In this document: piece after piece, positions 2,085 to 46,776 of the stretch
How the letters are laid out: every line of letters starts with the position of its first letter
Numbering within the stretch: the stretch's first letter is position 1
Assembly (NCBI GenBank): GCA_024401055.1
Contig: JAKSLT010000009.1
Coordinates: 1-51,435 of the forward strand
Direction of reading: 5' to 3'
Source: Bacteroidaceae bacterium
Lineage (GTDB): Bacteria; Bacteroidota; Bacteroidia; Bacteroidales; Bacteroidaceae
DNA length: 51,435 nucleotides
Notes under the pieces: generated by a model
Seen by the model: only the letters and a program-made list of their open reading frames with translations
Database searches by the model: none
What the model was told of the DNA's origin: nothing
Translations under genes and position numbers: made by a program

Positions 2085-3854
2085 CTACTTCTGAAGGTAA
2101 TGCTTTCCTGTTTCTTCTATAATTTTCTTACGGTATTCCATGGGGTAGCCGGGGCGCTCGGGGGGTACGGCGAGGCCGTCGGGGGTCTTCTGGAAGGTGC
2201 CGCGGGCGTCTTCTTTCTTCACGGCCATGTCGTTGTACTTCACGATTATCTTCTCGCCGAGTTTCTTCCAGCGGGCGAGCATACCTTGGGCCTTGCGTAC
2301 GCCGTAGCCGGAGAGGAGGCGCCGGGCCTCGGTGTGGTGGCCTTCTTCGCAGAGGCGGACGGCCTTGGCTTCTATGTCGCTCTGGGCTTTGAGGAGGGCG
2401 TCCTCAATGGCGTCGCGCTCCTTCTGGAGCTCGGGGAATATGACGGAGTAGCGTGGATACACCATATTGGCCACCCAGTTCTCTACCCAGAAGGCGGACT
2501 TCCACGAGAAGGTGACGTCAGTGGCCGTGCCTTCGGCGTAACACTCGGGGATGCGGGTGGTCTGGCAGTAGATGGGCGTGTAGGCGCACATGTTGGGGTC
2601 GTCGTTGCCAATCCAGATGACGCCGCCCACGGCATTGGGCATCGTGCCGCGCAGCTGGGCGATGTAGGTCATTGCCGTCTGCTGCGTGGAGATGGGGCGC
2701 TCGTTGAAATACTTCTGTCCGTCGGGGCCGTCGAAGGTGAGGGGCGTGGGACGGTAGGGCATTTCCCACGGGCCCTGGCCGAGGTCCTTCTGCACGTCGA
2801 AGGGGGTGCCTTCGTAGTGGTCGCGCATGGACATCATCACGTCGTGGAGCGAAAGTTTCTGGCGCGGCACGAACCACAGGGGCATCACCTCGGGGTTCTC
2901 CTGGCAGTGGAGGCCGTCGACGAAGGGGAGGTAGCGGTCCATACCGTCCACCCACTTGTTGAAGAAGCTCCATGCGCGGGCATCGCAGAAGCGCTGGCTG
3001 CTCAAGTCGGCTGGCGAATAGGCTGCGGAGAAGGAGAAGTCGGCGTCCTTGCCGGAGAAGAAGCCTTTCTCGCGGGCGAAGGCGATGACGTCCTTGCTGC
3101 AGATGACGTTCTGCTTGTCCTTCATGTTGAACTTATGGATGCGGCTCTGGTTGGCGTGGCAGCAGATGGCATCGTCGGGGATGCGCTGGGCCACCCATAC
3201 GGCACCTTTGCGGCCGGGGCCCTTGCCTATCATCTCCATCACCCATACTTCGTTGGGGTCGGCAATGGAGAAGGACTCGCCCTCGGAGGCGTAGCCGTAT
3301 TCGGCCACGAGGTCGGTCATCACCTTGATGGCCTCGCGTGCCGTCTTGGCGCGTTGCAGGGCGAGGTGCATGAGGCTGACGTAGTCTATCTTGCCGGTGA
3401 GGGTGTCGGCGAGTTCGAGGCGGCCACCGAAGGTCGTCTCCATAATGGCGAGCTGGTGCTCGTTGATGTAGCCGACGACCTGATAGGTGTGGGCCACTTC
3501 GGGAATGTCGCCGTAGTAGTGGTTGGCGTCGCCGTCGAATATCTTGCGCACGGCACCGGCGGGATGGTCGGCGGCGGGGAGATACACGAGGTGGCCGTAC
3601 ATACCGTAGGAATCCTGATTGTACGTAATCATTGTACTGCCGTCGGCGGAGGCGTTCTTACCGATGAGGAAGTTGGTGCACGCCAATGACGGAGCGAGGG
3701 AAAGGAGGGTGAAGAGAAGAACAGCCTCTCCCCGACGAAGCTGCCTGTGGCACTTCGTCACCCCTCCCCTGTTGCTTTTGGCGACGGCCAAAATGCCGAG
3801 GGGGAGAATACCCTGAATCCTTGAAATAAAGGAGGAAAAAGAGAATAAGGACAT
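2085..3854 (-). CDS. C69 family dipeptidase
   Basis: Secreted or periplasmic N-terminal-nucleophile dipeptidase. The mature protein begins at Cys59 in CTNFLIGKNASADGS, the family hallmark: the cysteine freed by signal cleavage is the catalytic nucleophile. The rest matches the family (TYNQDS, a long PepD-like body, and a C-terminal helical region with KKEDARG). Length from the ATG is 589. The segment before the hydrophobic core is unusual. Residues about 13-46 are encoded by one copy of the two-hairpin repeat (3722-3812), giving a long basic n-region (KSNRGGVTKCHRQLRRGE) before AVLLFTLLSLAPSLA. An in-frame GTG inside the repeat (3759-3761) would give a normal 27-residue signal peptide, so the true start may be there. 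Upstream on the same strand is nadC. Confidence 0.88.
   Translation of the reverse strand: MSLFSFSSFISRIQGILPLGILAVAKSNRGGVTKCHRQLRRGEAVLLFTLLSLAPSLACTNFLIGKNASADGSTMITYNQDSYGMYGHLVYLPAADHPAGAVRKIFDGDANHYYGDIPEVAHTYQVVGYINEHQLAIMETTFGGRLELADTLTGKIDYVSLMHLALQRAKTAREAIKVMTDLVAEYGYASEGESFSIADPNEVWVMEMIGKGPGRKGAVWVAQRIPDDAICCHANQSRIHKFNMKDKQNVICSKDVIAFAREKGFFSGKDADFSFSAAYSPADLSSQRFCDARAWSFFNKWVDGMDRYLPFVDGLHCQENPEVMPLWFVPRQKLSLHDVMMSMRDHYEGTPFDVQKDLGQGPWEMPYRPTPLTFDGPDGQKYFNERPISTQQTAMTYIAQLRGTMPNAVGGVIWIGNDDPNMCAYTPIYCQTTRIPECYAEGTATDVTFSWKSAFWVENWVANMVYPRYSVIFPELQKERDAIEDALLKAQSDIEAKAVRLCEEGHHTEARRLLSGYGVRKAQGMLARWKKLGEKIIVKYNDMAVKKEDARGTFQKTPDGLAVPPERPGYPMEYRKKIIEETGKHYLQK
3722..3812 (-). repeat. 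Two-hairpin repeat copy, inside the C69 dipeptidase 5' end
   Basis: The first stem is a perfect GACGAAG (3734-3740) / CTTCGTC (3753-3759) around the conserved CTGCCTGTGGCA. The second, C-rich/G-rich arm is longer than usual because it carries an extra GTTGCTTTTGGCGACGGCCA segment. It is translated in frame on the minus strand as part of the dipeptidase leader. Confidence 0.85.
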
Positions 3855-3892
3855 ACTATATAATATCTAATAATGTGTAATATGCAAAAGTA

Positions 3893-3957
3893 TTTTCCCC
3901 CTCCCTAACAGGGGAGGGGTGGCGCGGTGCGTTAGCAGCCGCGACGGGGAGAGGCTA
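3893..3957 (+). repeat. Two-hairpin repeat copy between nadC and the C69 dipeptidase
   Basis: It contains CCCTCCCTAACAGGGGAGGG, then GGCGCGG / CCGCGAC around TGCGTTAGCAG, and ends ACGGGGAGAGGC. It abuts the nadC stop codon (3955-3957). Confidence 0.85.
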
Positions 3958-4809
3958 ATTCACGGCCTTGAAACTCAAGTCCAGCCCCTTGACGCTGTGG
4001 GTGAGGGCGCCGAAGGAGATGAAATCGACGCCGGCCTTAGCGTAGGGAATCATCGTGTCGAAGGTTATGCCGCCGCTGGATTCCGTTTCGCACTGGCCGT
4101 TCACCATCTCGACGGCGCGGGCGGTGTCTTCGGGCGTGAAGTTGTCGAACATAATGCGGTCGGGGTGCTCGGCGAGAGCCTCCTCCAGTTCCTGGAAGTT
4201 GCGCACCTCAATCTCAATCTTGAGGTCCTTGCCCTGTGCCTTGCAGTATTCCTTGGCGCGGGTGATGGCGTTGTGGATGCCGCCGCAGAAATCGACGTGG
4301 TTGTCCTTGAGCAGAATCATATCGAAGAGACCTATGCGGTGGTTCGTGCCGCCGCCTATCTTCACGGCCTCTTTCTCCAACATACGCATGCCGGGCGTGG
4401 TCTTGCGGGTGTCGAGCACGCGGGTCTTCGTGCCGGCATCGATGAGGGCCTGCTGATACTTGTGCGTCATGGTGGCGATGCCGCTCATGCGCTGCACGAT
4501 GTTGAGCATGAGGCGCTCTGTCTGGAGGAGAGAGCGCACACGGCCGCGGACAATCATCACGATGTCGCCGGGCTGGATGGCGTCGCCGTCGTTGAGGAAC
4601 TGCTCAATGACGAGTTCGGGGTCGAAGCGGTGGAATACCTCACGGGCTATGCGCACGCCGGCCAGTATGCCGGGTTGTTTTACGAGCAACTTCTGGGCAC
4701 CCATCGCGTCGGCGGGGATGCTGCAGAGGGTGGTGTGGTCGCCGTCGCCGATATCCTCGGAGAAGGCCAGGTCAATGAGTTTGTCGTTGAGTTCGTCTAC
4801 TGTGTACAT
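3955..4809 (-). CDS. nadC: Nicotinate-nucleotide pyrophosphorylase (carboxylating)
   Basis: Quinolinate phosphoribosyltransferase of de novo NAD synthesis: quinolinate + PRPP gives nicotinate mononucleotide + CO2 + PPi. 284 residues from MYTVDELND, the normal size. Family blocks seen: EDIGDGDHTT, VRGRVRSLLQTERLMLNIVQRMSGIAT, VLDTRKTTPGMRMLEKEAVKIGGGTNHR, LKDNHV, IEIEVRN and SGGI. A longer frame runs upstream to about 5061, but it begins outside homology. The part from 4893 is coded by a fragment of the two-hairpin repeat and an AAAAGTT simple repeat, and a -7 promoter box at 4909-4916 would lie inside it, so the start at 4809 is preferred. Confidence 0.95.
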   Translation of the reverse strand: MYTVDELNDKLIDLAFSEDIGDGDHTTLCSIPADAMGAQKLLVKQPGILAGVRIAREVFHRFDPELVIEQFLNDGDAIQPGDIVMIVRGRVRSLLQTERLMLNIVQRMSGIATMTHKYQQALIDAGTKTRVLDTRKTTPGMRMLEKEAVKIGGGTNHRIGLFDMILLKDNHVDFCGGIHNAITRAKEYCKAQGKDLKIEIEVRNFQELEEALAEHPDRIMFDNFTPEDTARAVEMVNGQCETESSGGITFDTMIPYAKAGVDFISFGALTHSVKGLDLSFKAVN

Positions 4810-4823
4810 GATATTGGGAGGAG

Positions 4824-4890
4824 TTAAAAAGTTAAAAGTTAAAAGAGAAAAGTTGGGAATGGGGAGGCCCGCGACGGGGAGAGGCTGTGT
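4824..4890. repeat. AAAAGTT simple repeat and a partial two-hairpin repeat
   Basis: 4824-4856 is a run of GTTAAAAG units. 4858-4887 is a truncated copy of the two-hairpin repeat (CCCGCGACGGGGAGAGGC). Both lie in the nadC leader. Confidence 0.65.
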
Positions 4891-4908
4891 CATGGTGTAT
4901 AATTGTTG

Positions 4909-4916
4909 CAAAGATA
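4909..4916 (-). promoter_or_regulatory. -7 box of the nadC promoter
   Basis: TATCTTTG on the minus strand, matching the Bacteroidetes TAnnTTTG element about 100 bp before the nadC start. No well-spaced -33 TTTG was seen. Confidence 0.55.
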
Positions 4917-5023
4917 CGCATTTATCCTGATACTTGCCACATTGCCTTGTCAAAAAGTGCGAGCAAAAAGGTGAAAACGTGCGATTTTTGCTATTTACTG
5001 CCCCGCTAAAGAGCAGAATGTCG

Positions 5024-5031
5024 TATTTTTG
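5024..5031 (+). promoter_or_regulatory. -7 box upstream of the winged-helix gene
   Basis: TATTTTTG followed by C, about 45 bp before the ATG at 5077. The upstream TTTG is too far away for the consensus spacing, so only the -7 element is claimed. Confidence 0.55.
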
Positions 5032-5076
5032 CACTCGTCGCAAGACACAACATTTATTCACTAAACATTAACAGTT

Positions 5077-5280
5077 ATGTTGACAACGAAAGCCGGCGAA
5101 CTGGCCGGAGCAATCTGGGTAGCCCTCAGCGAGCAGGGCACTCTCACTGGTAAAGAACTGAAGAAAGCAGCAAAGATCAAGAGCGACAAGGACCTTTATC
5201 TGGGTCTCGGTTGGCTTCTCCGCGAGGATAAGGTCTATACTGCCGAAGTAGAAAAAGACATCACCGTTTCTCTGAAGTAA
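5077..5280 (+). CDS. Small winged helix-turn-helix protein (DUF2582 family)
   Basis: 67 residues. The whole protein fits the short winged-HTH domain common in Bacteroidetes, with AGELAGAIWVALSEQG, a recognition-helix region TGKELKKAAKIKSDKDLYLGLGWLLRED and a wing KVYTAEVEKDITVSLK. It is presumed to bind DNA or act as a small structural regulator; no target is visible. It has its own -7 box and a strong intrinsic terminator just after the stop, so it is probably a monocistronic, well-expressed gene. Confidence 0.85.
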   Translation: MLTTKAGELAGAIWVALSEQGTLTGKELKKAAKIKSDKDLYLGLGWLLREDKVYTAEVEKDITVSLK

Positions 5281-5298
5281 TTTCACCGGTGAAAGAAG

Positions 5299-5333
5299 GC
5301 CTCCTCCCCTTCCCGGGAGGAGGCTGTTTTTTT
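5299..5333 (+). terminator. Intrinsic terminator of the winged-helix gene
   Basis: A perfect 10-bp stem, GCCTCCTCCC (5299-5308) with GGGAGGAGGC (5315-5324), a 6-nt loop, and then TG followed by seven T. Confidence 0.92.
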
Positions 5334-5401
5334 AGTTGACACACATTTCCTTTTAATTCTCAATACTCCCCCTCATCTCCTCCTTAATATCCTAATGAGG
5401 T

Positions 5402-5466
5402 ATTTTCCCCTCCCTATGGGGGAGGGGTGGCGCGGTGCCGCAGGCAGCCGCGGCGGGGTGGGGCTT
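5402..5466 (+). repeat. Two-hairpin repeat copy upstream of hemW
   Basis: CCCTCCCTATGGGGGAGGGG, then GGCGCGG / CCGCGGC around TGCCGCAGGCAG. It ends 9 bp before the preferred hemW start and is in frame with it, but is not thought to be translated. Confidence 0.85.
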
Positions 5467-5474
5467 TTATATAC

Positions 5475-8595: not shown

Positions 8596-8863
8596 CGACT
8601 TATTAAGGAAATAGCAACGAAAAGACGGGAAATTATGCATATTTTTGCCCTCGCCATTCCGAAAGGTGTGCCGCAGCCGGTGATTTCCGAAGCTTTTTCT
8701 TCCGTTTGCTGGAGCGTTCAGTCCGTCTGCCTTAGCCGGAAGGCGTCTTGCTGCTGACCGTCTGACTTGTTCAGGAAACTAATATGCCTTTCCCAACAAA
8801 ATTATAGGGAAAACTTGTTGCCGGAGCCGTAGCCGTCGTCCTTTGTCGGCATTTAGTCATCAT

Positions 8864-8973
8864 GGCCACAGCTGTGGCCGATATTTGTCACAGCTGTGAC
8901 GCATACTTGGCCACAGCTGTGACGCATACTTGGCCACAGCTGTGACGCATACTTGGCCACAGCTGTGGCCAAG
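8864..8973. repeat. Array of five CACAGCTGTG palindromes at 22-23 bp spacing
   Basis: Cores at 8867-8876, 8889-8898, 8912-8921, 8935-8944 and 8958-8967. The outer two lie in the 16-bp perfect palindrome GGCCACAGCTGTGGCC, the second is GTCACAGCTGTGAC, and the middle ones are hybrids. The repeated unit of the inner copies is GCCACAGCTGTGACGCATACTTG. The rest of this 650-bp gap shows only the two flanking promoter boxes. Confidence 0.9.
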
Positions 8974-9164
8974 ATGAACACTTCGGCAATTGAGCGTCGG
9001 CAAGGTGGGTCAGGACGTCGTGAAGGAGTGTGAGAAAGGCGCAGCGGGGAGGTGGAGGCAGATTGGCCTATTTACCTGCCAGGAAAGGTCGCAATAATGG
9101 CGTGTGAGGCGGGCGATATGTTAAAAAGAGTGGGGATGATGAGTGATAAGTCGGATTTTTTTTG

Positions 9165-11499: not shown

Positions 11500-11503
11500 C
11501 AGC

Positions 11504-11584
11504 CCCTCCCCGTCGGGGCAGGCCCCCTCTACCTCCCCCAAGGGGGAGAATCCGCGCCACCCCTCCCCCATAGGGAGGGGAGAA
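11504..11584. repeat. Two-hairpin repeat copy after rlmD
   Basis: CCCCTCCCCCATAGGGAGGGG with the tail GAATACTCCTAAAGG marks the second arm. The first arm is interrupted by an extra CCTCCCCCAAGGGGGAG hairpin. It is followed at 11625-11668 by a T-rich ATTTTTTACTTTTTAC simple repeat leading to the next gene. Confidence 0.75.
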
Positions 11585-11675
11585 TACTCCTAAAGGTCAG
11601 AGGCGGAAAGAAAAGAAAGAACAACTTACTTATTTTTTATTTTTTACTTTTTACTTTTTATTTAATTTATTACCC

Positions 11676-16857: not shown

Positions 16858-16984
16858 ACTCCAGTTTTCCCCTATAAGGACTGGAGTTTCTCCCTATAAG
16901 GACTGGAGTTTTATCCTATAAGGACTGGAGTTTCTTCCTATAAGGACTGGAGTCCTAACAGGGGAGGACTGGAGTCCTAAGGGG
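16858..16984. repeat. 22-bp tandem repeat with ACTGGAGT core
   Basis: CTATAAGGACTGGAGT recurs at exact 22-bp steps (16872, 16894, 16916, 16938), preceded by one inverted ACTCCAGT (16858) and followed by two degenerate GGACTGGAGTCCTAA units. Only the last six bases of each unit vary. It sits between the aquaporin terminator and the convergent GNAT gene. Confidence 0.88.
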
Positions 16985-21024: not shown

Positions 21025-21047
21025 AGTAGGGAAAAAGATTCACGGCC

Positions 21048-21116
21048 CCTCCTCGTTGCGGCTGCCTGCGGCACCGCGCCACCCCTCCCCCTGCAGGGAG
21101 GGGAATATACCACTAA
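21048..21116 (-). repeat. Two-hairpin repeat copy upstream of the M18 gene
   Basis: GTTGCGG / CCGCGCC around CTGCCTGCGGCA, then CCCCTCCCCCTGCAGGGAGGGG and the tail GAATATACCACTAAAGG. It is in opposite orientation to the copy at 21178. Confidence 0.85.
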
Positions 21117-21177
21117 AGGATGGAGACGAGGGTATGAGACGGTGGAGTGATATTATTATATATAATGAGTGCGACCT

Positions 21178-21247: not shown

Positions 21248-21248
21248 T

Positions 21249-28761: not shown

Positions 28762-28900
28762 AATTAAAACTGGAGAAAAATCATAAAAATCCTATTTTAT
28801 CATAAAAATCCGAATAGCGAAGCAGGCTTAAGGCGCTGCGCGGCTATTATGATTGACATGATGGAGTATGATTTTTATGATTTTTTTCTTTTGTGGCGAA

Positions 28901-29084
28901 ATACTTCCCATGTGATTTCAACTCCTTCCCATTAAATTCGCACTAATCCCCATTTAATTCAAACTACTTCCCATTTAATTCGCACTAGTCCCCTTTTAAT
29001 TTGTACTAGTTCCCATTTAATTTTTGCTAAAAGGGAAGAACGGAAAATTAAAAGGGAACTACGAAAAATTAAATGGGGAGTAGT
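28901..29084. repeat. 21-bp repeat array, five forward units and two inverted units
   Basis: Forward units start at 28921, 28942, 28963, 28984 and 29005 (type ACTACTTCCCATTTAATTCG), with a degenerate unit at 28901. Inverted units are at 29044-29063 and 29064-29084 (AAAAATTAAATGGGGAGTAG). The array can therefore fold back on itself. A sister array of the same unit lies at 45010-45120. Confidence 0.9.
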
Positions 29085-29114
29085 AAAGCAGGAAAAGGGC
29101 GTATCTTTGCGGGA

Positions 29115-37176: not shown

Positions 37177-38040
37177 GTGTATAAACAAGAAGAAATAAAG
37201 CCCTATTCTCAAACGGGAGAGAAGGCCGAGCAGGTGGAGCAGATGTTTGATAACATCGCGCCGACCTACGACCTTCTCAATCATCTCCTATCCCTCGGCA
37301 TAGACCGCCGCTGGCGGCGCAAGGCCCTCGACACGCTGAAACCTTACAAACCGCAGCGTATGCTCGACGTGGCCACGGGAACGGGCGACTTCGCCCTACT
37401 CGCCGTCAAAAGGTTGGCCCCGCAGTCTTTGCTCGGCGTGGACCTCAGCGAGGGTATGATGAATGTGGCCCGCAAGAAAGTGGAGGAGGCCGGCCTATCC
37501 TCCGTCATCAGTTTCCAAAAGGAGGACTGCCTAAACCTTACGCTGGCCGACAACACCTTTGACGCCATCACCGTGGCGTATGGCGTGCGTAACTTCCAGG
37601 ATCTGGAGCGCGGACTCGGCGAGATGCTGCGTGTGCTGCGTCCCGGCGGTCGTCTCGTCATCATAGAACTTACCGCCCCGCGCCGCTTCCCGATGAAACA
37701 ACTCTTTTGGTGTTACAGCCACGTGGTGATGCCCCTCATCGGCCGCCTTGTCAGTCGCGACAGCAAGGCTTACACCTATCTGCCCCACACTATGGAAGTA
37801 TTCCCGCAAGGCGAGGAAATGCAGAAAATCCTTGAAAAGGTTGGCTATACTGACGTGCAGTTCAAGAGGTTTACATTTGGTCTTTCAACATTATATACGG
37901 CGCAGAAGAAGACCCTCACATCAAGCCCCTCTTCAAGCCCCTCCCCGTCGGAGCCTCCTGCGGAGCTCCGCCACCCCTCCCCCTGTAGGGAGGGGAATAT
38001 ACCCCTAAAGGCAGCCAGCGCGTCACTAGCCGCCGAATAA
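37177..38040 (+). CDS. menG: Demethylmenaquinone methyltransferase with repeat-encoded tail
   Basis: 287 residues, GTG start. UbiE/MenG family: SAM-dependent C-methylation in the last step of menaquinone synthesis. Motifs: [72 protein letters not shown] and [14 protein letters not shown] (some quoted in part). The family core ends near residue 245. The last 40 residues ([20 protein letters not shown] and beyond) come from a two-hairpin repeat copy read in frame, so this is a terminal extension rather than a domain. It is followed by aroE after 73 bp. Confidence 0.93.
37935..38010 (-). repeat. Two-hairpin repeat copy forming the MenG C-terminus
   Basis: GTCGGAG (37947-37953) / CTCCGCC (37966-37972), then CCCCTCCCCCTGTAGGGAGGGG and GAATATACCCCTAAAGG. 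It is translated on the plus strand as [17 protein letters not shown] and following residues. A shorter related C-rich fragment lies at 38042-38090. Confidence 0.88.
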
Positions 38041-38113
38041 GACCCTCCCCCTCCCCCCTCCCTAAAGGGCGGGGAGTAGATGCTCCTACAAAAAGTACTT
38101 CTCTTTCTATTAT

Positions 38114-39841
38114 ATGGGTAAAGACAAAATATTGTATCCCTCGAATGTAATATCCCCCTCCCTAACAGGGGAGGGGTGTCAAAGTGCCGTAGGCAGCTTT
38201 GACGGGGAGAGGCTGGGGGCAGGCGTGCTTCTTTTCGGTCTCATCGGCCATCCTCTCGGCCACTCCTTTTCCGCCCGCTATTTCGCAGAGAAATTCGCGG
38301 CAGAGGGTATTGATGCCCGCTACGACAACTACGACCTTGACGATATCAGTGAGGTGGAGACCTTGCGCCGATTAAGCGGCTTCAACGTCACCATCCCCTA
38401 CAAGCAAGCCGTCATTCCCTACCTTGACGGTATGAGCGACGAGGCCCGTGCCATAGGAGCCGTCAATACTGTCCGCGTGGAGGACGGCCGCTTTTACGGA
38501 TACAACACGGACGTCATCGGCTTCCGCGAGTCCCTCTGCGACTGGTTTTCAGAGGATAACGCCTCCGTCCGCTCGGCCCTCGTCCTCGGCACAGGTGGCG
38601 CCTCGAAGGCTGTATGCTACGCCCTCACGCAACTTGGCATAGCCTGGCAACTCGTAAGCCGCACGCCCAAGGAAGGCTGTCTGACGTATAACGACCTCCG
38701 CAAGGATACCTCCATCCTGGCCTCTACGGCCCTCATCGTCAACTGCACCCCCCTCGGCACTTTCCCTAACGTTGATGCCTGCCCTGACATTCCCTTCGAC
38801 TTGCTTACCCCTGCCGTCCGTCTCTATGACCTCGTTTACAACCCCGAGGAGACGCTCTTCCTCCGCCGAGGCCGCGAGCATGGCTGCCCCGTAAAGAACG
38901 GCCTTGAAATGCTCCACAGGCAGGCCGAGGCGGCGTGGAAGATATGGAGCCTCACCCCGTCGGAGCCTCCTTCAGACCTCCGCCACCCCTCCCCCTGTAG
39001 GGAGGGGGATATACCTCTAAAGGTAGCAGGCGCGTCACCATCCGCAGGAGCATTCTCCCCTTCCCTACAGGGGGAGGGGTGGCAGGGTGGCGCAGCCAGC
39101 CCTGACGGGGAGAGGCTTGGGAAGCCCCCCTACTTAGACATCTTCCTCGACTTCGACGACACCCTCTACAACACGCGAGGCAACGCGGAGACAGCGCTGG
39201 CAGAACTCTACGACGAACTCGGCCTCAACCGCTATTTCCCCGCCCTTGAAGCCTTCACCGTTCCTTACTGGCAGGCCAACATTGAACTCTGGGAACAGTA
39301 CAGTGCCGGCAAAATCACGCGCGACTATCTCATCGTCGAACGCTTCCGCCGGCCCCTCTCGCAGGGTCAGGGCCTGCAAGTCACACGCGACCTCTGCCTT
39401 CGTGCCAGCGACATCTTCCTCGGGCTCTGTGCCCACAAGCCCGGTCTTTTGGAAGGTGCCCGTGAGCTCCTTGACTACCTGCATCCCCGCTACCGTCTCC
39501 ACCTGTGCAGCAACGGCTTCCACGAGGTGCAGTACCACAAACTCCGAGCCTCCGACACCCTTCGCTATTTCACAACGGTTATCCTCTCCGAGGATGCGGG
39601 CTACAACAAGCCCTCCGCCGAATACTTCGACTACGCTTTCCGCGTCTCGGGTGCCAATCCCGCCACGACCCTTATGATAGGTGATAATCCCGTGACCGAC
39701 ATCCAAGGTGCCGCCCGTGCCGGCCTTGACACTATCCTCTTTGAGCGTTGGGGACCCTCTCCCGAAACCGAGGCGACCTATAGGGTGAAGAAACTTGTGG
39801 ACATTATTAAGACCCTCCCCCCAACCCCTCCCTTAAAGTGA
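38114..39841 (+). CDS. Fusion: shikimate dehydrogenase + HAD family hydrolase
   Basis: 575 residues in one open frame. Residues about 38-279 are AroE: GLIGHPLGHSFS, FNVTIPYK with catalytic Lys97, GYNTDVIGF with Asp133, and the NADP-site LGTGGASKA. Residues about 341-565 are a HAD phosphatase of the YjjG type: DFDDTLYNT, CSNGF, GYNKPSAEYF and GDNPVTD. Residues 280-340 between them are translated from two opposed copies of the two-hairpin repeat. Residues 12-36 come from another copy, and the final LPPTPPLK from a fragment. No ATG, GTG or TTG exists in frame in or after the linker close to the HAD start, so the HAD is made only as a fusion unless an unusual start is used. AroE reduces 3-dehydroshikimate; the HAD substrate is unknown. 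Confidence 0.9.
   Translation: MGKDKILYPSNVISPSLTGEGCQSAVGSFDGERLGAGVLLFGLIGHPLGHSFSARYFAEKFAAEGIDARYDNYDLDDISEVETLRRLSGFNVTIPYKQAVIPYLDGMSDEARAIGAVNTVRVEDGRFYGYNTDVIGFRESLCDWFSEDNASVRSALVLGTGGASKAVCYALTQLGIAWQLVSRTPKEGCLTYNDLRKDTSILASTALIVNCTPLGTFPNVDACPDIPFDLLTPAVRLYDLVYNPEETLFLRRGREHGCPVKNGLEMLHRQAEAAWKIWSLTPSEPPSDLRHPSPCREGDIPLKVAGASPSAGAFSPSLQGEGWQGGAASPDGERLGKPPYLDIFLDFDDTLYNTRGNAETALAELYDELGLNRYFPALEAFTVPYWQANIELWEQYSAGKITRDYLIVERFRRPLSQGQGLQVTRDLCLRASDIFLGLCAHKPGLLEGARELLDYLHPRYRLHLCSNGFHEVQYHKLRASDTLRYFTTVILSEDAGYNKPSAEYFDYAFRVSGANPATTLMIGDNPVTDIQGAARAGLDTILFERWGPSPETEATYRVKKLVDIIKTLPPTPPLK
38150..38213 (+). repeat. Two-hairpin repeat copy in the AroE N-terminus
   Basis: CCCTCCCTAACAGGGGAGGGG, then a perfect GTCAAAG / CTTTGAC around TGCCGTAGGCAG. 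It is read in frame as SPSLTGEGCQSAVGSFDGER. A native AroE would begin near VLLFGLIG; there is no ATG between the repeat and that point. Confidence 0.88.
38953..39024 (-). repeat. Two-hairpin repeat copy, first half of the AroE-HAD linker
   Basis: GTCGGAG / CTCCGCC around CCTCCTTCAGAC, then CCCCTCCCCCTGTAGGGAGGGG and the tail GATATACCTCTAAAGG. It is read as [20 protein letters not shown], nearly the same peptide as the MenG tail. Confidence 0.9.
39050..39118 (+). repeat. Two-hairpin repeat copy, second half of the AroE-HAD linker
   Basis: CCTTCCCTACAGGGGGAGGGG, then GGCAGGG / CCCTGAC around TGGCGCAGCCAG. It is read as [20 protein letters not shown], matching the peptide in the AroE N-terminus. 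It is in opposite orientation to the copy just before it. Confidence 0.9.
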
Positions 39842-39940
39842 GGGGAGTATATACTCAAGGCGATGGATAATAAAAGTAAAAAAAATAATTTCTTATAAAT
39901 TCTTTCAGTTAAGCAAGGCTGCCTTGCATGCCCTCCCTTT

Positions 39941-42025
39941 ATGAAAAAGAAGTCTGATCACAAAGCAAACTCGTCCGCCTCCCCATTATACTCCCCGCCC
40001 TCTAGGGAGGGGAAGGGGGCGGGTCTCTACCTCCTCCGCTCTGACCGTTGGCTTCGCCCCTTTGCCTCCGCCATTGAGGGCCGCCACGAATGGTATCTTC
40101 ATAAAAAGGCTGAACTCACCCTGAACGGCCGCAAGACGCTTTCCGACGTGGCCACCGGTCATCTGTACTACGGTCTCCATCGCACGCCCCGCCAGTGGGT
40201 GTTCCGTGAGTGGGCCCCCAACGCCACCGCCATCTATCTCATAGGCGACTTCAACGGCTGGCAGGAGACAGAGGACTTCCGCCTCCAACCTCTCGGCGAC
40301 AGCGGCAACTGGGAAATCAAGCTTCCCGCCCGATCCCTCTCTCACGGACAGCTCTACAAGATGAGCGTCCACTGGCCCGGCGGACAGGGTGAGCGCATTC
40401 CCGCATGGTGCCAGCGTGTGGTGCAGGATGATCACACCAAACTCTTCTCCGCGCAGGTGTGGGCTCCCGAGCCATACCAGTGGCAGGTGAAGAAGTTCCG
40501 CCCCAAGCGCGACCCGCTACTCATCTACGAGTGCCACGTCGGCATGGCGCAGGACGCCGAGAAGGTGGGCACATACAATGAGTTCCGCGAACTCGTTCTC
40601 CCGCGCATTGTCCGCGCCGGCTATAATTGCATACAGATTATGGCCATTCAGGAGCACCCCTATTACGGCTCCTTCGGCTATCACGTTTCCTCTTTCTTCG
40701 CTCCCTCCAGCCGCTGCGGCACCCCCGAGGAACTCAAGGCCCTCATCGATGCCGCCCACGCCCAGGGCATCAGCGTCATAATGGATATGGTGCAGAGCCA
40801 CGCTGTGAAGAACGAGAACGAAGGCCTCGGCAACCTCTGCGGCGATCCCTGCCAGTATTTCTATCAGGGCGGCAAGCGCGAGCACAGCCAGTGGGACAGT
40901 CTCTGCTTCGACTACGGCAAGAACCAGGTCATCCATTTCCTCCTCTCCAACTGCAAATACTGGCTCGAGGAGTTTCATTTTGACGGCTTCCGCTTCGACG
41001 GCGTCACCTCTATGCTCTACCACAGCCACGGCCTCGGCGAGTCCTTCAACGGCTACGGCGACTACTACAACGGCGGCCAGGACGACAATGCCATCTGCTA
41101 CCTCACCCTCGCCAACGACCTCATCCACGAGGTCAATCCCCGCGCCATCACCATCGCCGAGGAGGTTAGCGGTATGCCCGGCCTCGCCGCCCCAATCAAG
41201 CACGGCGGCTACGGCTTCGACTACCGCATGGCCATGAACATCCCCGACTACTGGATAAAAATCATCAAGGAGCGCAAGGACGAGGACTGGCATCCCTCCG
41301 GCATCTTCTGGGAACTCACCAACCGCCGTCGTGGTGAAGCCACCATCTCCTACGCCGAGAGCCACGACCAGGCCCTCGTGGGCGACAAGACCATCATTTT
41401 CCGCCTCATCGACGCCGATATGTACTGGCACTTCCGCCGTGGCGACGAGAACGCAGCCGCCCATCGCGGCATAGCTCTCCACAAGATGATACGCCTCGTC
41501 ACCGCCTCCACTATCTGCGGCGGCTACCTCAACTTCATGGGCAACGAGTTCGGCCATCCCGAATGGATAGACTTCCCCCGCGAGGGCAACGGCTGGAGCC
41601 ATAAATACGCCCGTCGCCAGTGGAACCTCGTCGATAATCCCGAACTCTGTTATCACCTCCTCGGCGACTTCGATGCCGCCATGCTCCACCTCCTCGGCCA
41701 GACGCCCAAGTTCCAGCGCACCCCCGTACAGGAGATTTGGCACAACGACGGCGACCAAATCCTCGCCTTTACCCGCGGTGACCTCCTCTTCGTCTTCAAC
41801 TGGAGTCCCACGCGCTCCTTTACCGACTACGGCTTCATGGTGCCTGAGGGCAGCTACGAGGTCGTCCTCAACACCGACGACCCCGCCTTTGGCGGTTTCG
41901 GTTCAACGGACGACACCCTTACCCATTTCACCGCCCCCGACCCGCTCCTCGCGCCCCAGCACAAAGGCTGGCTCAAACTCTATATCCCCGCCCGCTCCGC
42001 CGTGGTGCTGAGGAAAAGAGACTGA
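39941..42025 (+). CDS. glgB: 1,4-alpha-glucan branching enzyme (GH13)
   Basis: 694 residues, cytosolic. Makes alpha-1,6 branches in glycogen. Order: N-terminal extension, CBM48 domain (about 70-165, FREWAPNATAIYLIGDFNGW), the GH13 barrel with Asp353 in FRFDGVTSM, Glu407 in IAEEVSG and Asp476 in ESHDQ, and a C-terminal beta domain. It is of the eukaryote-like GH13_8 type. The first 28 residues contain SPLYSPPSREGKGAG, a short fragment of the C-rich repeat (39985-40022), placed before the native-looking LYLLRSDRW. It closes the phoH run and is followed by a strong bidirectional hairpin. Confidence 0.94.
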   Translation: MKKKSDHKANSSASPLYSPPSREGKGAGLYLLRSDRWLRPFASAIEGRHEWYLHKKAELTLNGRKTLSDVATGHLYYGLHRTPRQWVFREWAPNATAIYLIGDFNGWQETEDFRLQPLGDSGNWEIKLPARSLSHGQLYKMSVHWPGGQGERIPAWCQRVVQDDHTKLFSAQVWAPEPYQWQVKKFRPKRDPLLIYECHVGMAQDAEKVGTYNEFRELVLPRIVRAGYNCIQIMAIQEHPYYGSFGYHVSSFFAPSSRCGTPEELKALIDAAHAQGISVIMDMVQSHAVKNENEGLGNLCGDPCQYFYQGGKREHSQWDSLCFDYGKNQVIHFLLSNCKYWLEEFHFDGFRFDGVTSMLYHSHGLGESFNGYGDYYNGGQDDNAICYLTLANDLIHEVNPRAITIAEEVSGMPGLAAPIKHGGYGFDYRMAMNIPDYWIKIIKERKDEDWHPSGIFWELTNRRRGEATISYAESHDQALVGDKTIIFRLIDADMYWHFRRGDENAAAHRGIALHKMIRLVTASTICGGYLNFMGNEFGHPEWIDFPREGNGWSHKYARRQWNLVDNPELCYHLLGDFDAAMLHLLGQTPKFQRTPVQEIWHNDGDQILAFTRGDLLFVFNWSPTRSFTDYGFMVPEGSYEVVLNTDDPAFGGFGSTDDTLTHFTAPDPLLAPQHKGWLKLYIPARSAVVLRKRD
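39985..40022. repeat. C-rich repeat fragment in the GlgB N-terminus
   Basis: CTCCCCGCCCTCTAGGGAGGGG with flanking bases, matching only the second hairpin of the repeat. It is translated in frame. Confidence 0.6.
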
Positions 42026-42097: not shown

Positions 42098-43270
42098 CTA
42101 TTTGTTTCCTTTCGCTCTGTTGTGCGTCGTGCAGAGCATCTGGCAGTTGCCAATGGTCGTGCTGCCGCCGTGGCTCCAGGCCGTTACGTGGTCGGCGTCC
42201 ATCTCTGTCTCTTTATAGATGCGCGTCCTGTTCGCGTCTTTTCCTATGGCGCATAAGGGGCAGTTGCTGATTCCCGCCTTTCGGGCCGCCTGTGTCTGGT
42301 GCATATAGACGCTCCTGATGGTAGATTTCTCAAACACGCGGATATGGAGTAGCCTCGTGTCCTTTTCTTCTCCCAGCACGAACTCAAAGATGCCTTTCTT
42401 GTCCGTTACGCGCTCGTCGGTCATAAGTTCTTCCACCCGTTTCGCCAGCCGGTCGGGCATATAGGCCTTCGTGTGATATTCTTCGTAGAGGCGTCCCCAT
42501 TCGCGGCCGCACATTTCCTTGTAAACATCTTTGAAGGTGGCCGACACCCAATCTATCACGGAGTTGAAGTAAGTCTGCAATTCGTTTATGTCAGTGTCTT
42601 GCCTGTGCTTGCTCATGTAGCTGGCCACGTCGCCGCGGCTCACCCACGAGAGGGCGGCGTGAAGATAATCCTGTCGTTTCACATTGCCGGCCATGTAGGC
42701 GCTCCATTTCTGCACCAGCGGGTTGTTGCTGTTGCTGAATTCCGCCTTGGCCTTCGTCACGAAAGGCCCGTAGTAGGTAGCATTCAGCATCTCTTGCTCG
42801 TTAAGCGGAATGCCGGCTATATTAATAGTCCTGAACCATTCGCGAATCTGCGTCTCCGTACCTTCGCAGATATACACGAGCAACTTTGTCTGCTCGATTC
42901 TCTCGCGTATGTCGGCGGCCAGGCTGCTGATGTTCTGATTGCGGCCTTCGGCATCGATGATGTCGAGTTTATTTGTCATGAAGCGCCCGAGGGAGGTGAT
43001 GCGCTGCTGGCCGTCCAGCACCTCATAGGTATCCTCGCCTGTCTTGTTGAAGTATATGAGGCCGAGAGGGTAACCCTTTATCACGCTCTCAATCACGGCC
43101 ACGTCGCGCTTGCCGTCGGCATAGATATAGTTACGCTGATATTCCGGCTGAATCACGAGTTTGCCGTTCAAACCGAACAGCCCTTTGCCTTCAAACTCAT
43201 TATAGACAAAACCCTCACAAATGTCCTTGATTGTAATTTCGCGAAGAATCGCTTTCATTGGTGCTTCCAT
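42098..43270 (-). CDS. DUF262 (GmrS-like) protein with C-terminal HNH nuclease domain
   Basis: 390 residues. The N-terminal DUF262/ParB-like part has PEYQRNYIY and the signature DGQQRITSL (residues 86-94), associated with nucleotide hydrolysis in GmrSD-type enzymes. The C-terminal 65 residues form an HNH domain: CPLC zinc-type cysteines, [24 protein letters not shown]. An alternative start at Met5 is possible. It begins 3 bp after the stop of the EcoRI-family methyltransferase, so the two are one unit. Expected role: DNA cleavage in a restriction or anti-phage setting, with the methylase protecting the host. Similar DUF262-HNH proteins also occur alone, so the pairing is inference. Confidence 0.88.
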
Positions 43271-43273
43271 AGT

Positions 43274-44425
43274 TTATTGCTTTTTGCGGATAAAAATTCT
43301 TTGATACACGACTTGCGCTTTTCCTTCTGCTGTCAGTAGGTAAGGGTTCTGGATGCGCCAGGTCTTGTCTTGCTTTTTGTATGTTTCTGCATCTTCTTTT
43401 GAGGGAGGAGTATAAAACGTACACTCATTTTCAGCCCATTCAATGTCTCCTCCTCTCCAGATTACTTCAAATTGTTCAGGGCAGTATTTATCAAGAAAAG
43501 AAATTGGAACTCCCATGAACCCTTCATAGTCAGCGGGGATGGCATCTGTATAAGGTACTTCTATTGCATCATAGTTTTCGTAGTGGTCGTAATCAGTTTT
43601 ACCTTTTACCTCTTTGTGCTTGCTAAATTTAAGATTGTCTGCCATAGTCATGAGCGGCAAAGGTTGATGGCGGCGGCCATGGTCTATGTTTGTGAGCCAG
43701 CAGCAATTTCTAAACTTTACCAGTCCCGTGTTCTCATCGTAGACGCCATTGGAGTATTCTTTTGTTATGGGTGTCTTGAAGAAAGCATTACCTCCTTGAA
43801 AACCATAGCCCAACCATGCTTTATTATCTTTGACACAATGGAAAATTTCCTTATAAGTAATTGCATTCATATTCCCAATTATCAAGAACTTCTTTTCGCT
43901 CTCCATAACCCACGCAAAGAACTCGCGGAAAAGAGAGAAGGGTGGATTGGTTACGATGATATCGGCCTCATCGCGGAAAGCACGGACTTCTTTGCTGCGG
44001 AAGTCGCCATCGCCCTCAAGATACTGCCATTGCAGGTCGTCAATATCTATGCGGCCGTTGCCGTCCACGTCCACCTCGCGATCGAGTACGAACAGTTTAC
44101 CGCGAGTCTGCGACTTGGACGCATCAAACTGCGGGCTCTCCGACTCAAACATCGTAATAAGAGGAGCGGCCTGCAACTTCTTCTTTTCTGGCGCATAACT
44201 CGTACTGATAAGTTTGCGCAGTCCCAAGTCCTCAAAATGGAGGGCGAAGTAACGTGTGAAGTTGCTCCATTCCGGATCGTCGCAAGGCAGGAGCACCACC
44301 TTGTCGCGGAAGGTGTCGGGGTTGAATTCAAGGTAGGCGTTTACCTCCTTCTCAATGTCGGCGTATTGCGTGTAGAACTCGTCGTTCTTGTCGTTTTTCG
44401 CCTTCGAAAGGTTTGCGTTGGCCAT
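43274..44425 (-). CDS. EcoRI-family adenine-specific DNA methyltransferase
   Basis: 383 residues. The N-terminus NLSKAKNDKNDEFYTQYADI and PCDDPEWSNFTRYFALHF are typical of the EcoRI methylase family, and the N6-adenine catalytic motif TNPPFSLF is at residues 159-166. The C-terminal part is conserved to the end. It should transfer a methyl group from SAM to adenine in a specific site; the site cannot be read from the sequence. The gene has a consensus promoter (44780-44810) about 350 bp upstream and a long leader with strong secondary structure. Its partner is the DUF262-HNH gene 3 bp downstream. Confidence 0.92.
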   Translation of the reverse strand: MANANLSKAKNDKNDEFYTQYADIEKEVNAYLEFNPDTFRDKVVLLPCDDPEWSNFTRYFALHFEDLGLRKLISTSYAPEKKKLQAAPLITMFESESPQFDASKSQTRGKLFVLDREVDVDGNGRIDIDDLQWQYLEGDGDFRSKEVRAFRDEADIIVTNPPFSLFREFFAWVMESEKKFLIIGNMNAITYKEIFHCVKDNKAWLGYGFQGGNAFFKTPITKEYSNGVYDENTGLVKFRNCCWLTNIDHGRRHQPLPLMTMADNLKFSKHKEVKGKTDYDHYENYDAIEVPYTDAIPADYEGFMGVPISFLDKYCPEQFEVIWRGGDIEWAENECTFYTPPSKEDAETYKKQDKTWRIQNPYLLTAEGKAQVVYQRIFIRKKQ

Positions 44426-44427
44426 AA

Positions 44428-44458
44428 AGATGATAGATTTCGCATCAATCTATCATCT
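44428..44458 (-). promoter_or_regulatory. Perfect 12-bp hairpin 2 nt before the methylase start codon
   Basis: AGATGATAGATT (44428-44439) and AATCTATCATCT (44447-44458) with a 7-nt loop. In the mRNA the hairpin ends two bases before AUG, so it could control ribosome access or be an operator for a dimeric protein. Confidence 0.85.
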
Positions 44459-44479
44459 GGCATTCGTCTGCGCGAAAGA

Positions 44480-44695
44480 CATAAGAAAAGGGTGTGAACA
44501 CTTCTTATGGTCTTCCGAGGCAAGCGTAGGATACTGAACCTCCATCCGATATAAGAATGCCCACACCCAAAGGGTGAAGACATTGACCTTATAATATCGG
44601 ATGGATAGTTCCTACGCCACGACGAAGAAACCAACCATTATTGGTGTGGTGCTATATTCAGATTGAAAGTTTCCTACGCTTTTTCTGGAAGACCA
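44480..44695 (-). ncRNA. Candidate structured leader RNA of the methylase-HNH unit
   Basis: Nested pairings read on the minus-strand transcript. Outer stem: 44508-44516 with 44687-44695 (TGGTCTTCC / GGAAGACCA). Second stem: 44522-44531 with 44672-44681 (10 bp perfect). Third: 44542-44555 with 44588-44604 (CCATCCGATATAAG and complement with a bulge), capped by CACCC-AAA-GGGTG. A side hairpin at 44617-44649 joins ACCAA to TTGGT and CCAC to GTGG. A separate CATAAGAA/TTCTTATG hairpin is at 44480-44509. Segment 44524-44531 can pair equally with 44610-44617, so two folds compete. No known riboswitch class is recognised, and an alternative is a folded mobile-element remnant. Confidence 0.6.
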
Positions 44696-44779
44696 CAATA
44701 ATAGTCAATGCTGTATGTAATATAATGTTTGTTTTTCTAAACTTTCTGTTTTGTCGTGTCTTGTAGGTTTTATTCGCTG

Positions 44780-44810
44780 CAAAAATACAAAAAACTCGCG
44801 AAGGAGCAAA
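44780..44810 (-). promoter_or_regulatory. Consensus promoter of the methylase-HNH unit
   Basis: On the minus strand TTTG (44807-44810), 19-bp spacer, TATTTTTG (44780-44787). This places the transcript start near 44775 and implies a leader of about 350 nt. Confidence 0.8.
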
Positions 44811-45009
44811 ATTTCATTGCAGAAACTTCCTTTTAGTCACGGCGTTGGCGGTGGAAAACGTGCTTTCGGCTCAGAGAAGCGCGTCTTTTTGTCCAAAAAC
44901 ATCCGCGGCGCCCCGCTTTTTTCTCCGCGCGAAACTGTAAAAAATTTTGACAAAAGGAAAAAAGTGAGCAAACGAAGTCGCGCTGAAACCGACTTCCGAT
45001 TCTCGCGTC

Positions 45010-45120
45010 ATTAGTCCCCTTTTAATTTGTACTACCTCCCTTTTAGTAGAAATTAAATGGGAAGTAATTCGAATTAAATGGGAAGTAATTCAAATTAAAT
45101 GGGAAGAAGTTCGCATTAAG
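45010..45120. repeat. 21-bp repeat array, sister of the one at 28901-29084
   Basis: Two forward units (TTAGTCCCCTTTTAATTTGT at 45011 and ACTACCTCCCTTTTAGTAG at 45031), then three inverted units at exact 21-bp steps (45052, 45073, 45094; ATTAAATGGGAAGTAATTC). The gap from 44811 to 45834 otherwise holds two copies of TGTAAAAAATTTTGACAAAA-like sequence (near 44935 and 45325), two GCGGGAAATAAT units (45491-45526), a C-rich repeat fragment (45528-45560) and the promoter repeat; no credible gene. Confidence 0.88.
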
Positions 45121-45621
45121 ACTGGATTAGTTCTCAGTGGAGCGCGGGCAGTTTTGCTTACTAAAAGGGAAGAAATTGCGGATTTTTGAAACGCGCAGAT
45201 TTTGGTATGTTGTAACGAAGGGTAAATCAGCGATTTGCGCAACTCTCGCGTGACGGCGATATTCGCGTCCAAGATTTTCGTGATGCGAAATATCGTCAGG
45301 AAATGGCAGTTTAGAGGGTCGAAATTGTAAAATTTTTTGACAAAAATGGGGAAGGAATAAATGCCTACAGCGCTACATGAATTGGGAATAAATTAGGAAA
45401 AAATTTTAGATGGCTGGAGCGGGTAGGAAGGCGTTCGTTTGCGAGGGGTAGAGTTTTGTCGGCTGGCGCCGAGAAATAAGGCCGCCCTGTGGGCGGGAAA
45501 TAATAAGCCGCTTTGCGGGAAATAATTAAGACCCCCTCCAACTCCCCCGGGGGGGGAGAGCCTGAGACGCTCCGTGAACACTAAATCGTATATTATTGCC
45601 CGTAAGTTTGGCTCTTTGCAG

Positions 45622-45815
45622 ATTTATTCGTAACTTTAAACTCCGTTTTTAGTTACTCTCGCTCGGAAATACTCAAATTTCGCTGCGCTTATTTGGTATT
45701 TCGCTCGCTTATTCGTAACTCTGGACTTCGTCCCAAATTACTTTCGCTCGGAAAAACAAAGAAAAACGCAGCTTTCCTTTGTTTTTCGCTCGCTTATTCG
45801 TAACTTTGCAGCGCG
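45622..45815 (+). repeat. Promoter-bearing repeat upstream of kdsA
   Basis: TTATTCGTAACTTTAAACTC opens it, TTAGTTACTCTCGCTCGG follows, then an intermediate CGCTTATTCGTAACTCTGG, CTTTCGCTCGGAAAAACAAA and the terminal TTTCCTTTGTTTTTCGCTCG plus TTATTCGTAACTTTGC. The last 37 bp match the phoH copy exactly. Confidence 0.88.
45778..45808 (+). promoter_or_regulatory. Consensus promoter of kdsA
   Basis: TTTG (45778-45781), 19-bp spacer, TAACTTTG (45801-45808), 27 bp before the kdsA start. It is identical in sequence to the phoH promoter. Confidence 0.85.
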
Positions 45816-45834
45816 ATAATATATATTATAAGGT

Positions 45835-46599
45835 ATGACTCCTCTTTTCATTGCAGGGCCGTGCGTCATAGAGAGCGCGGAATTGCTTGACACGGTGGCT
45901 GCAGAACTGCGGCGCATCGCGGACGCGACGGGGGCCGAGATTGTCTTCAAGGCTTCGTTCGACAAGGCGAACCGCACGAGCATTCACTCCTTCCGCGGTC
46001 CGGGGATGGAGCGCGGCTTGCAGATGCTCGCCGACGTGAAGGCCCGCTACGGCCTGCGCGTGACGACCGACGTGCACGAGAGCTATCAGGCCGAGGCCTG
46101 TGGCGAGGTGTGCGACGTGCTGCAGGTGCCGGCGTTCCTCTGCCGACAGACCGACTTGCTGACAGCGTGCGCCCGGACGGGTCGCGTGGTGAACATCAAG
46201 AAGGCGCAGTTCCTCTCCGGCGAGGATATGCGCTACCCCGTGGAGAAGGCCCGCGAGGCCGGTGCCACGGAGGTGTGGCTCACGGAGCGCGGCAATACCT
46301 TCGGCTACAATACGCTGGTGGTGGACTTCCGCAATCTGCCGATAATGCGGCAGTGGGCCGACCGCGTGGTGATGGACTGCACGCACTCGGTGCAGCGTCC
46401 CGGGGCGGCTGGCGGCAAGACGGGCGGCGACCGCCAGTATGTGCCCGCCATGGCACTGGCGGCCAAGGCTTTCGGTGCTCAGGGGTATTTCTTTGAGACG
46501 CACCCCACGCCGGATACGGCCCTCTCGGACGGGCCTAATATGCTGCCGCTGGAGGATATGGAGGGGATGATAAAAAGACTGAACCAAAGCCCTACCTAA
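45835..46599 (+). CDS. kdsA: 3-deoxy-8-phosphooctulonate synthase (Kdo8P synthase)
   Basis: 254 residues. Condenses phosphoenolpyruvate with arabinose 5-phosphate in Kdo/LPS core synthesis. Blocks: FIAGPCVIES, FKASFDKANRTS, GLRVTTDVHE, LQVPAFLCRQTDLL, VNIKKAQFLSGEDM, TERGNTFGYNTLVVD and DCTHSVQRPG. The cysteine in GPCVIES (Cys10) marks the metal-dependent type, as the metal-independent enzymes have Asn there. It starts from a repeat-borne consensus promoter, and two tandem copies of the two-hairpin repeat follow it. Confidence 0.95.
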   Translation: MTPLFIAGPCVIESAELLDTVAAELRRIADATGAEIVFKASFDKANRTSIHSFRGPGMERGLQMLADVKARYGLRVTTDVHESYQAEACGEVCDVLQVPAFLCRQTDLLTACARTGRVVNIKKAQFLSGEDMRYPVEKAREAGATEVWLTERGNTFGYNTLVVDFRNLPIMRQWADRVVMDCTHSVQRPGAAGGKTGGDRQYVPAMALAAKAFGAQGYFFETHPTPDTALSDGPNMLPLEDMEGMIKRLNQSPT

Positions 46600-46611
46600 A
46601 GCCCCACCTAA

Positions 46612-46690
46612 AGCCCCACCCCGTCAACGCTGCCTGCGGCACTTTGACACCCCTCCCCCATAGGGAGGGGAAGATACCCCTAAAGGAAGG
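46612..46690 (-). repeat. Two-hairpin repeat, first tandem copy after kdsA
   Basis: GTCAACG / CTTTGAC around CTGCCTGCGGCA, then CCCCTCCCCCATAGGGAGGGG and the tail AAGATACCCCTAAAGG. Confidence 0.9.
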
Positions 46691-46695
46691 GGAGC

Positions 46696-46776
46696 AGCCC
46701 CACCCCGTCAAAGCTGCCTGCGGCACTTTGACACCCCTCCCCCATAGGGAGGGGAAGATACCCCTAAAGGAAGGGG
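46696..46776 (-). repeat. Two-hairpin repeat, second tandem copy after kdsA
   Basis: It differs from the preceding copy at one visible base in the first stem, which makes this stem perfect (GTCAAAG / CTTTGAC). It is followed by an AACTTTTAACTTTTAAT simple repeat (46807-46840) and psd. Confidence 0.9.

Follow-up and report, generated by a model that had tools for sequence, protein, structure and literature searches.

Hairpin repeats dispersed in a Bacteroidaceae genome are likely ends of a mobile element that encloses a DUF559 gene

A stretch of 51,435 nucleotides (nt) from a Bacteroidaceae bacterium (contig JAKSLT010000009.1 of assembly GCA_024401055.1, positions 1 to 51,435; hereafter, the window) contains a dispersed repeat that can fold into two consecutive hairpins. 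What is this repeat, and what moves it? A first-pass annotation of the window had proposed a mobile or RNA element resembling repetitive extragenic palindromic (REP) sequences, with a mobiliser located outside the window. We consider it likely that the repeat is the hairpin end of a mobile element, and that the gene enclosed by some pairs of repeats, a member of the DUF559 family predicted to encode a Vsr-fold nuclease, would act by cutting the folded ends, moving full elements and gene-less pairs alike.

The host assembly (2.31 Mb in 103 contigs) is 83% complete, with ~17% of the genome missing. We built a covariance model, R1, from 10 of the 12 window copies. R1 matched 12 sites in the window (Table 1) and recovered all 12 main copies listed in the first-pass annotation, although only those at 3723 and 11501 are independent finds, since the other 10 had been used for training. 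Across the window and 78 further stretches of the same genome (313,267 bases total), we counted at least 169 copies, so the repeat is not restricted to the window. In a genome-wide search, 150 of 3673 candidates were scored and all 150 matched R1; 169 is thus a lower bound. Among 60 relatives, searched with stricter filters than the host genome, only two gave matches: seven in G009 (three of them weak, with E values of 1e-5 or worse) and two weak ones in G007, a relative placed in the same genus as the host. The remaining 58 gave none. An Rfam scan of the window returned no family, and a search of the window for tRNA and tmRNA genes returned none.

Each unit consists, in order, of box 1 (consensus AGCCYCWCCCC), stem 1, stem 2 (CCACCCCTCCC-loop-GGGAGGGG), and a variable tail. 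The tail GAATATACCCCTAAAGG, previously taken as a common feature, proved not to be general and occurs within three mismatches at six places. Read by eye, four of the supposed fragments (38042, 39822, 39985, and 45528) belong instead to a one-hairpin sister type, while the one at 4858 is indeed a truncated copy. Eleven of the 169 copies are longer than 82 nt because other hairpin-forming sequence sits in a stem or loop (by eye). Stem 1 varies in sequence while its pairing is kept. It carries a one-sided C and, at the second pair from its base, a conserved T·C mismatch that the first-pass annotation had missed.

Covariation in the stems was counted in two ways. In an R1-fitted alignment of the best 150 of the 169 copies, 94.6% of cells were paired and 11 of 19 pairs were altered on both sides. 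Both-side changes occupied 362 cells, compared to 102.7 ± 21.6 after shuffling and 32–49 when the partner column was slid. Further pair types showed no clear excess in this alignment (25 vs. 23.3 shuffled, with 87 of 500 shuffles as high). Since a fitted alignment leans towards structure, we added a count by position alone, with no gaps and no fitting, on the 108 of these 150 copies that have identical spacing. At the six variable stem-1 pairs, 642 of 648 cells were Watson-Crick, two were G-T, and four were mismatched, and 24 of the 29 distinct states at variable pairs were fully Watson-Crick. Pair 13/36 was T·C in 83 of the 108 copies and mismatched in 88. Both counts bear out the original observation that stem 1 changes between copies yet stays paired, and with it the reading that selection acts on a fold rather than on sequence.

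Such compensated changes could also come from hairpin-templated correction, in which one arm is copied onto the other in replication, with no selection for recognition of the fold. The paucity of intermediates, six cells in 648, is what templating would leave; indiscriminate correction, however, would erase the T·C mismatch, which persists in most copies and in units from Novosphingobium (see below). Templated correction in place of selection is therefore possible but on balance unlikely, and the two processes can both be true. Changes in an RNA helix usually proceed by way of G-U. That so few of the variable pairs are G-T argues for a fold kept as DNA, and stem 1 is thus suggestive of a hairpin formed by DNA and not by RNA.

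The copies are arranged in a strongly preferred orientation. Among 62 neighbours within 400 nt of each other, 53 are +-, four ++, three --, and two -+. The +- pairs have their tails facing and form inverted palindromic doublets, as membership of the REP/REPIN group requires. The centre of the gene-less pairs measures 9–199 nt, and exactly 12 nt in 11 of the 53. The two units of a pair agree in stem-2 loop (18/34, chance 0.108) and in box-1 type (34/53, chance 0.278), with lower agreement in stem-1 triplets (11/38, chance 0.177). Some pairs (at L115, L111, and L053) contain three to four tandem repeats of the tail adjoining stem 2.

Pairs often span from a few bases off a stop codon to a few bases off a start codon. 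Using crude codon-usage gene calls, we found that 76 of 81 flanking gene pairs were co-directional, four divergent, and one convergent, compared to 45, 10, and 13, respectively, for 68 element-free gaps of >60 nt from the same loci (convergent vs. rest, Fisher p = 1.6e-4). The convergent count is 0 of 69 arrays without gene-overlapping copies and 1 of 81 gene pairs with them. The location of most copies between co-directional genes, where they are probably transcribed, would suit a selected RNA structure such as a terminator, mRNA stabiliser, or regulator. Terminators should, however, be common at the convergent gene ends that the copies rarely occupy, and the missing Rfam match, the two G-T cells, and the lack of matches in 58 of 60 relatives at R1 sensitivity all speak against the RNA half of the first-pass proposal, which we regard as highly improbable. 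The 162 outer flanks share no fixed target motif and favour particular bases only weakly (A or C at -1, A at -2 and -6). A box-1-like AGCCY lies within 20 nt of the unit in 26 of the 162 flanks, compared to 7 of 162 in the next 20 nt. Open frames extending at least 20 amino acids on both sides span 11 of 15 short pairs.

Elsewhere in the genome, the members of five + ... - pairs stand 448, 452, 477, 498, and 540 nt apart, and each of these pairs encloses one gene. All five genes belong to Pfam DUF559 (PF04480; E values of 1.3e-30 to 1.6e-34), the full elements measure 602–694 nt, and no other gene-sized sequence is present inside them. On this evidence, the repeats are likely the ends of mobile DNA. 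Modelling predicts a PD-(D/E)XK fold of the Vsr/homing-endonuclease type with conserved acidic and His residues, and the product is thus predicted to be a small DNA-cutting enzyme. Our search of the genome recovered one further DUF559 gene, for a total of six, and this one has a one-hairpin inverted repeat on either side; the five enclosed proteins form a clade with two proteins from metagenome-assembled genomes, L208 and L211 (support 0.83). The description of the repeat as a REP-like mobile element stands, as does the statement that its mobiliser is not in the window, the candidate being the bracketed DUF559 gene.

A REP-associated tyrosine transposase (RAYT) was the mobiliser that the first-pass annotation had suggested looking for. 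The genome does contain four Y1_Tnp (RAYT-type) genes, and the abundance and inverted doublets of the repeat are REPIN-like, but no significant R1 match adjoins any of the four in this incomplete assembly. Three sub-threshold matches were present in these loci, the best of 16 bits (E 0.0075) ~1 kb from its gene; closer to a gene, ~100 nt upstream of the Y1 gene of L005, is a fragment that scores 10.9 bits (E 0.19) and contains the box-1 string AGCCTCACCCCG. By eye, other palindromic repeats stand beside the Y1 genes, and the strong R1 matches bracket DUF559 genes instead. Because a RAYT flanked by the same repeat is the defining feature of the REP/RAYT system, we do not class the element there, and mobilisation by a Y1 transposase appears very unlikely. 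The short palindromic repeats alongside the Y1 genes, each of L002–L005 having its own, are possibly separate REP families.

Resemblances to REP/REPIN-RAYT systems, as presented in PMC3733652, extend to high copy number, imperfect palindromes, inverted doublets, gene-less units, location at gene boundaries, and in-frame cases. The partner gene here is DUF559 rather than Y1, however, and each unit stacks two hairpins. REPs sit between unidirectional and convergent open reading frames (ORFs) according to that paper, whereas our element is rare at convergent sites. The paper also describes CGTC-tagged REPs, Bacteroidetes included, as dimers without a dedicated transposase. Our element shares the dimers, and a CGTC motif stands at the foot of its stem 1; the 8–9 bp stem of the CGTC-REPs described there starts with A-T pairs and forms one hairpin in 20–40 bp, whereas ours starts with G-C followed by T·C.

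The bracketing of DUF559 genes recurs in other genomes. In a scan of species genomes, we took the best 80 of at least 559 DUF559 loci; among the 78 whose two flanks each reached 200 nt or more, an inverted repeat linked the two flanks at 65 at ≥30 bits and at 44 at ≥50 bits. Control intervals in the same loci gave 0 of 209, even at 25 bits. When flanks were paired across loci, 31 of 160 pairings reached 30 bits, owing to the similarity of ends from different genomes. The end seen most often in the best matches is AGCCTCACCCCC + 2 nt + CCCCTCTCC-loop-GGAGAGGGG, which consists of box 1 and stem 2 with no stem 1, and other loci carry C-rich relatives of it. Two-hairpin ends were seen elsewhere at L229 and L250 (by eye) and at the DUF559 gene of G009 (L127). 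An exact end pattern was present in seven of 61 genomes (reversed control, 0 of 61), six of the seven carriers having DUF559 (Fisher over 60 relatives p = 0.013), and G007 and G035 contain + - pairs away from DUF559. A search of the relatives covered 33 DUF559 loci, and 21 rows had a repeat at E ≤ 0.01; among these rows are a duplicate locus and a short contig whose flanks overlap. For DUF559 loci on plasmids from other phyla, repeats of ≥30 bits were found at six of 12 vs. one of 12 controls, that control belonging to L317, one of the six. Two-hairpin units stand next to the DUF559 gene of a Novosphingobium plasmid, and their stem foot is again GTC...GCC. An Rfam scan of 14 DUF559 loci returned no match and hence no known intron, and no DUF559 relative was confirmed in viral contigs with the host's own protein as query. 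Of the plasmid DUF559 genes, one lies between sufB and sufC in Sphingomonas (L318) and another between paaD and paaZ in Deinococcus (L322).

DUF559 might nevertheless be a passenger, kept inside the pairs for another reason such as defence or mismatch repair, while an unseen transposase or host recombination moves them. VsrA, a DUF559 protein of Caulobacter, has been connected with cytosine methylation and with DNA damage (PMC12907096), three of the 12 plasmid loci adjoin BREX or DUF1156 genes (two of these three without a repeat), half of the plasmid loci miss the 30-bit threshold, and the missing part of the host genome could hold another enzyme. Against this, bracketing recurs at most of the loci scanned and in other phyla, and the five host elements hold nothing else of gene size. 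We judge the passenger explanation improbable, though less so than a RAYT.

Element-free sites in G009 give a view of insertion. Two such sites could be read, with flanks 91–97% identical to those of the window. At the aroE-HAD junction, G009 has overlapping stop and start codons and 19 nt without a window counterpart, and the window has a 170-nt pair plus 18 nt; as a result of the pair, the two genes read as one ORF in the window. Between the methyltransferase gene and aroE, the window has a pair plus 34 and 18 nt of other sequence in place of 14 nt of G009. Neither site has an evident target-site duplication. G009 also lacks the one-hairpin pair that the window has at a third junction, and at L056 G009 retains a collapsed box 1-stem 1-box 1 remnant where the host genome has a pair.

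DUF559 is also found inside protein-coding genes. Fifteen of the 80 loci passed a length filter for long open frames, and host protein sequence was read in frame in 11 of them; the other four (L201, L208, L219, and L278) have long upstream frames without a recognised host. A Pfam scan of seven of the 11, plus two further loci, placed DUF559 inside leucyl-tRNA synthetase (Pedobacter and Cytophagales), another class-I tRNA synthetase (isoleucyl by reading), RecG (Winogradskyella), an ABC protein, a GH31 glycosidase, an epimerase/polysaccharide-synthesis protein, and a DegT aminotransferase, and at the N-terminus of guanylate kinase. Alignment of the epimerase gene with an empty homologue in G036 suggests that ~10 residues were replaced (77–89% identity, approximate). 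In four distant genomes (L129, L133, L232, and L251), DUF559 sits in frame at about the same loop of leuS, two of these cases being identified by Pfam and two by reading. The shared loop may reflect a recurrent target or homing. We also considered the leuS insertions as a single clade; their common ancestor holds 34 tips from mixed hosts in a quick tree, so a single origin is not supported.

We infer that DUF559 cuts the ends and moves gene-less pairs, and that the replacement of target bases is a general feature of insertion. Two units facing tail to tail would enclose either the nuclease gene or a short centre of other DNA, and each would form a DNA hairpin, either while single-stranded or within a cruciform. 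Box 1 and the imperfect stem would be recognised by the nuclease, which would cut at the unit edge. An excised or copied pair would then be joined at a new break, with the loss of ~15–30 nt of target, and gene-less pairs would be mobilised in trans. Co-directional reading frames would tolerate insertion, whether between them or inside one, as the GC-rich unit has few stop codons by composition alone. Open frames as an adaptation of the unit were considered and rejected, since a unit has on average 2.83 stop-free frames of six vs. 3.10 shuffled (158 copies).

Several observations, the last one included, weigh against this scheme or narrow it. The fraction of the genome that is missing means that another mobiliser could go unseen, and our transposase search covered Y1 only. 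Repeats fell below 30 bits at 13 of the 78 scanned loci and at six of the 12 plasmid loci, and 12 of the 33 loci in the relatives search had none. DUF559 occurs without the searched end motif in 15 of 60 relatives; conversely, G035 (83% complete) has paired ends and no DUF559 match. The order on the Novosphingobium plasmid is + - gene +, not + gene -. Of 99 arrays, 19 were placed on the fetched part of G009, most of them too diverged for base-level reading, and target replacement is read from the two G009 junctions and a looser case in capF. The unaligned window sequence beside the units (34 + 18 nt at the methyltransferase-aroE junction, 0 + 18 nt at aroE-HAD) means that the original event is not fully read.

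A broader proposal, which we advance tentatively and with distinctly less confidence than the scheme itself, is that these elements form a class in Bacteroidota, Alphaproteobacteria, Cyanobacteria, and Deinococcota whose sole enzyme is the Vsr-fold DUF559 protein. In the two-hairpin form, the nuclease would recognise the T·C mismatch in its own extruded ends, much as Vsr detects a mismatched T, and would nick there. On insertion, at gene junctions or in frame in essential genes such as leuS, the elements would take the place of a short run of host DNA, and they would spawn >100 gene-less hairpin units in one genome. Recognition of T·C as a general rule is weakened by the one-hairpin ends, which have no such mismatched stem.

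Other known systems share some of these features. Vsr-like homing endonucleases (I-Bth0305I, PDB 3r3p) differ in that our elements have hairpin inverted ends and a large gene-less population; the 14 DUF559 loci scanned had no Rfam intron, intein domains not having been searched for separately. Rickettsia palindromic elements (RPE) are likewise palindromes read in frame within genes (PMC10969869), as is our element in, for example, the AroE-HAD fusion of the window, but full-length versions of our element carry a nuclease gene. Miniature inverted-repeat transposable elements (MITEs) are also short non-autonomous inverted-repeat pairs; at the two junctions that could be read here, target bases are replaced and a target-site duplication is not evident. 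Among the matches listed in the open-licence literature, none was seen to connect DUF559 with palindromic repeats or with insertion in frame. The bracketing gives the repeats a candidate mobiliser and DUF559, a family of unknown function, a candidate role. If correct, it would add a nuclease-only route to the known modes of bacterial DNA movement and would account for the DUF559 domains within leucyl-tRNA synthetase, RecG, and guanylate kinase of some species. The covarying stem, in at least 169 copies, is also a clean natural data set on hairpin recognition.

Table 1. Repeat units and associated reading frames in the window
Feature	Coordinates	Strand	Remarks
Two-hairpin unit, extra hairpin in stem-2 loop	3723..3817	+	R1 60.5 bits; same stem-2 variant forms left end of DUF559 element L082:1501
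Two-hairpin unit, partner of 3723, tails facing	3879..3956	-	R1 77.6 bits
Truncated unit, limited to box 1 and part of stem 1	4861..4886	-	Repeat family D10; sequence read
Two-hairpin unit, just upstream of start codon	5388..5465	-	R1 90.6 bits; 9 nt from called gene
Two-hairpin unit, one-hairpin unit inserted in stem 1	11501..11599	+	R1 58.3 bits; similar insert at same place in L097
Two-hairpin unit, left of pair	21044..21122	+	R1 93.1 bits
Two-hairpin unit, right of pair, abuts stop codon	21172..21248	-	R1 82.4 bits
ubiE/COQ5-type methyltransferase ORF, C-terminus element-encoded	37177..38040	+	Empty site in G009
Two-hairpin unit	37936..38014	+	R1 99.3 bits; site empty in G009
One-hairpin sister unit (GACCC.. 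+ C/G hairpin)	38041..38076	+	Sequence read
ORF joining shikimate dehydrogenase and HAD hydrolase via element pair	38114..39841	+	Separate, overlapping genes in G009
Two-hairpin unit, encodes N-terminus of aroE ORF	38136..38214	-	R1 90.9 bits
Two-hairpin unit, left of 170-nt pair	38948..39026	+	R1 92.1 bits; G009 has here 19 nt with aroE stop and HAD start
Two-hairpin unit, right of 170-nt pair	39039..39117	-	R1 88.6 bits
One-hairpin sister unit, left of pair	39811..39847	+	Sequence read; absent from G009 junction
One-hairpin sister unit, right of pair with 39811	39990..40025	-	Sequence read; absent from G009
One-hairpin sister unit	45530..45558	+	Sequence read
Two-hairpin unit, first of tandem pair	46612..46689	+	R1 93.4 bits
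Two-hairpin unit, second of tandem pair	46696..46773	+	R1 96.6 bits

The window also contains repeats of other kinds. Two 79-nt copies of another GC-rich hairpin repeat (..CCAGGGGCGTTGCCCCTGG..GCCCCTTCGGGGC..), 94% alike and 106 nt apart, lie at 855–1039. Five tandem units of 22–23 nt, each with the palindrome CCACAGCTGTGG or a near variant, occupy 8863–8978, and 22-nt tandem repeats of the type ACTGGAGTTTNNNCCTATAAGG are found at 16858–16967. Degenerate 21-nt tandem repeats around CCCATTTAATT extend over 28897–29105 and have an inverted 120-nt match (78%) at 45009–45132.

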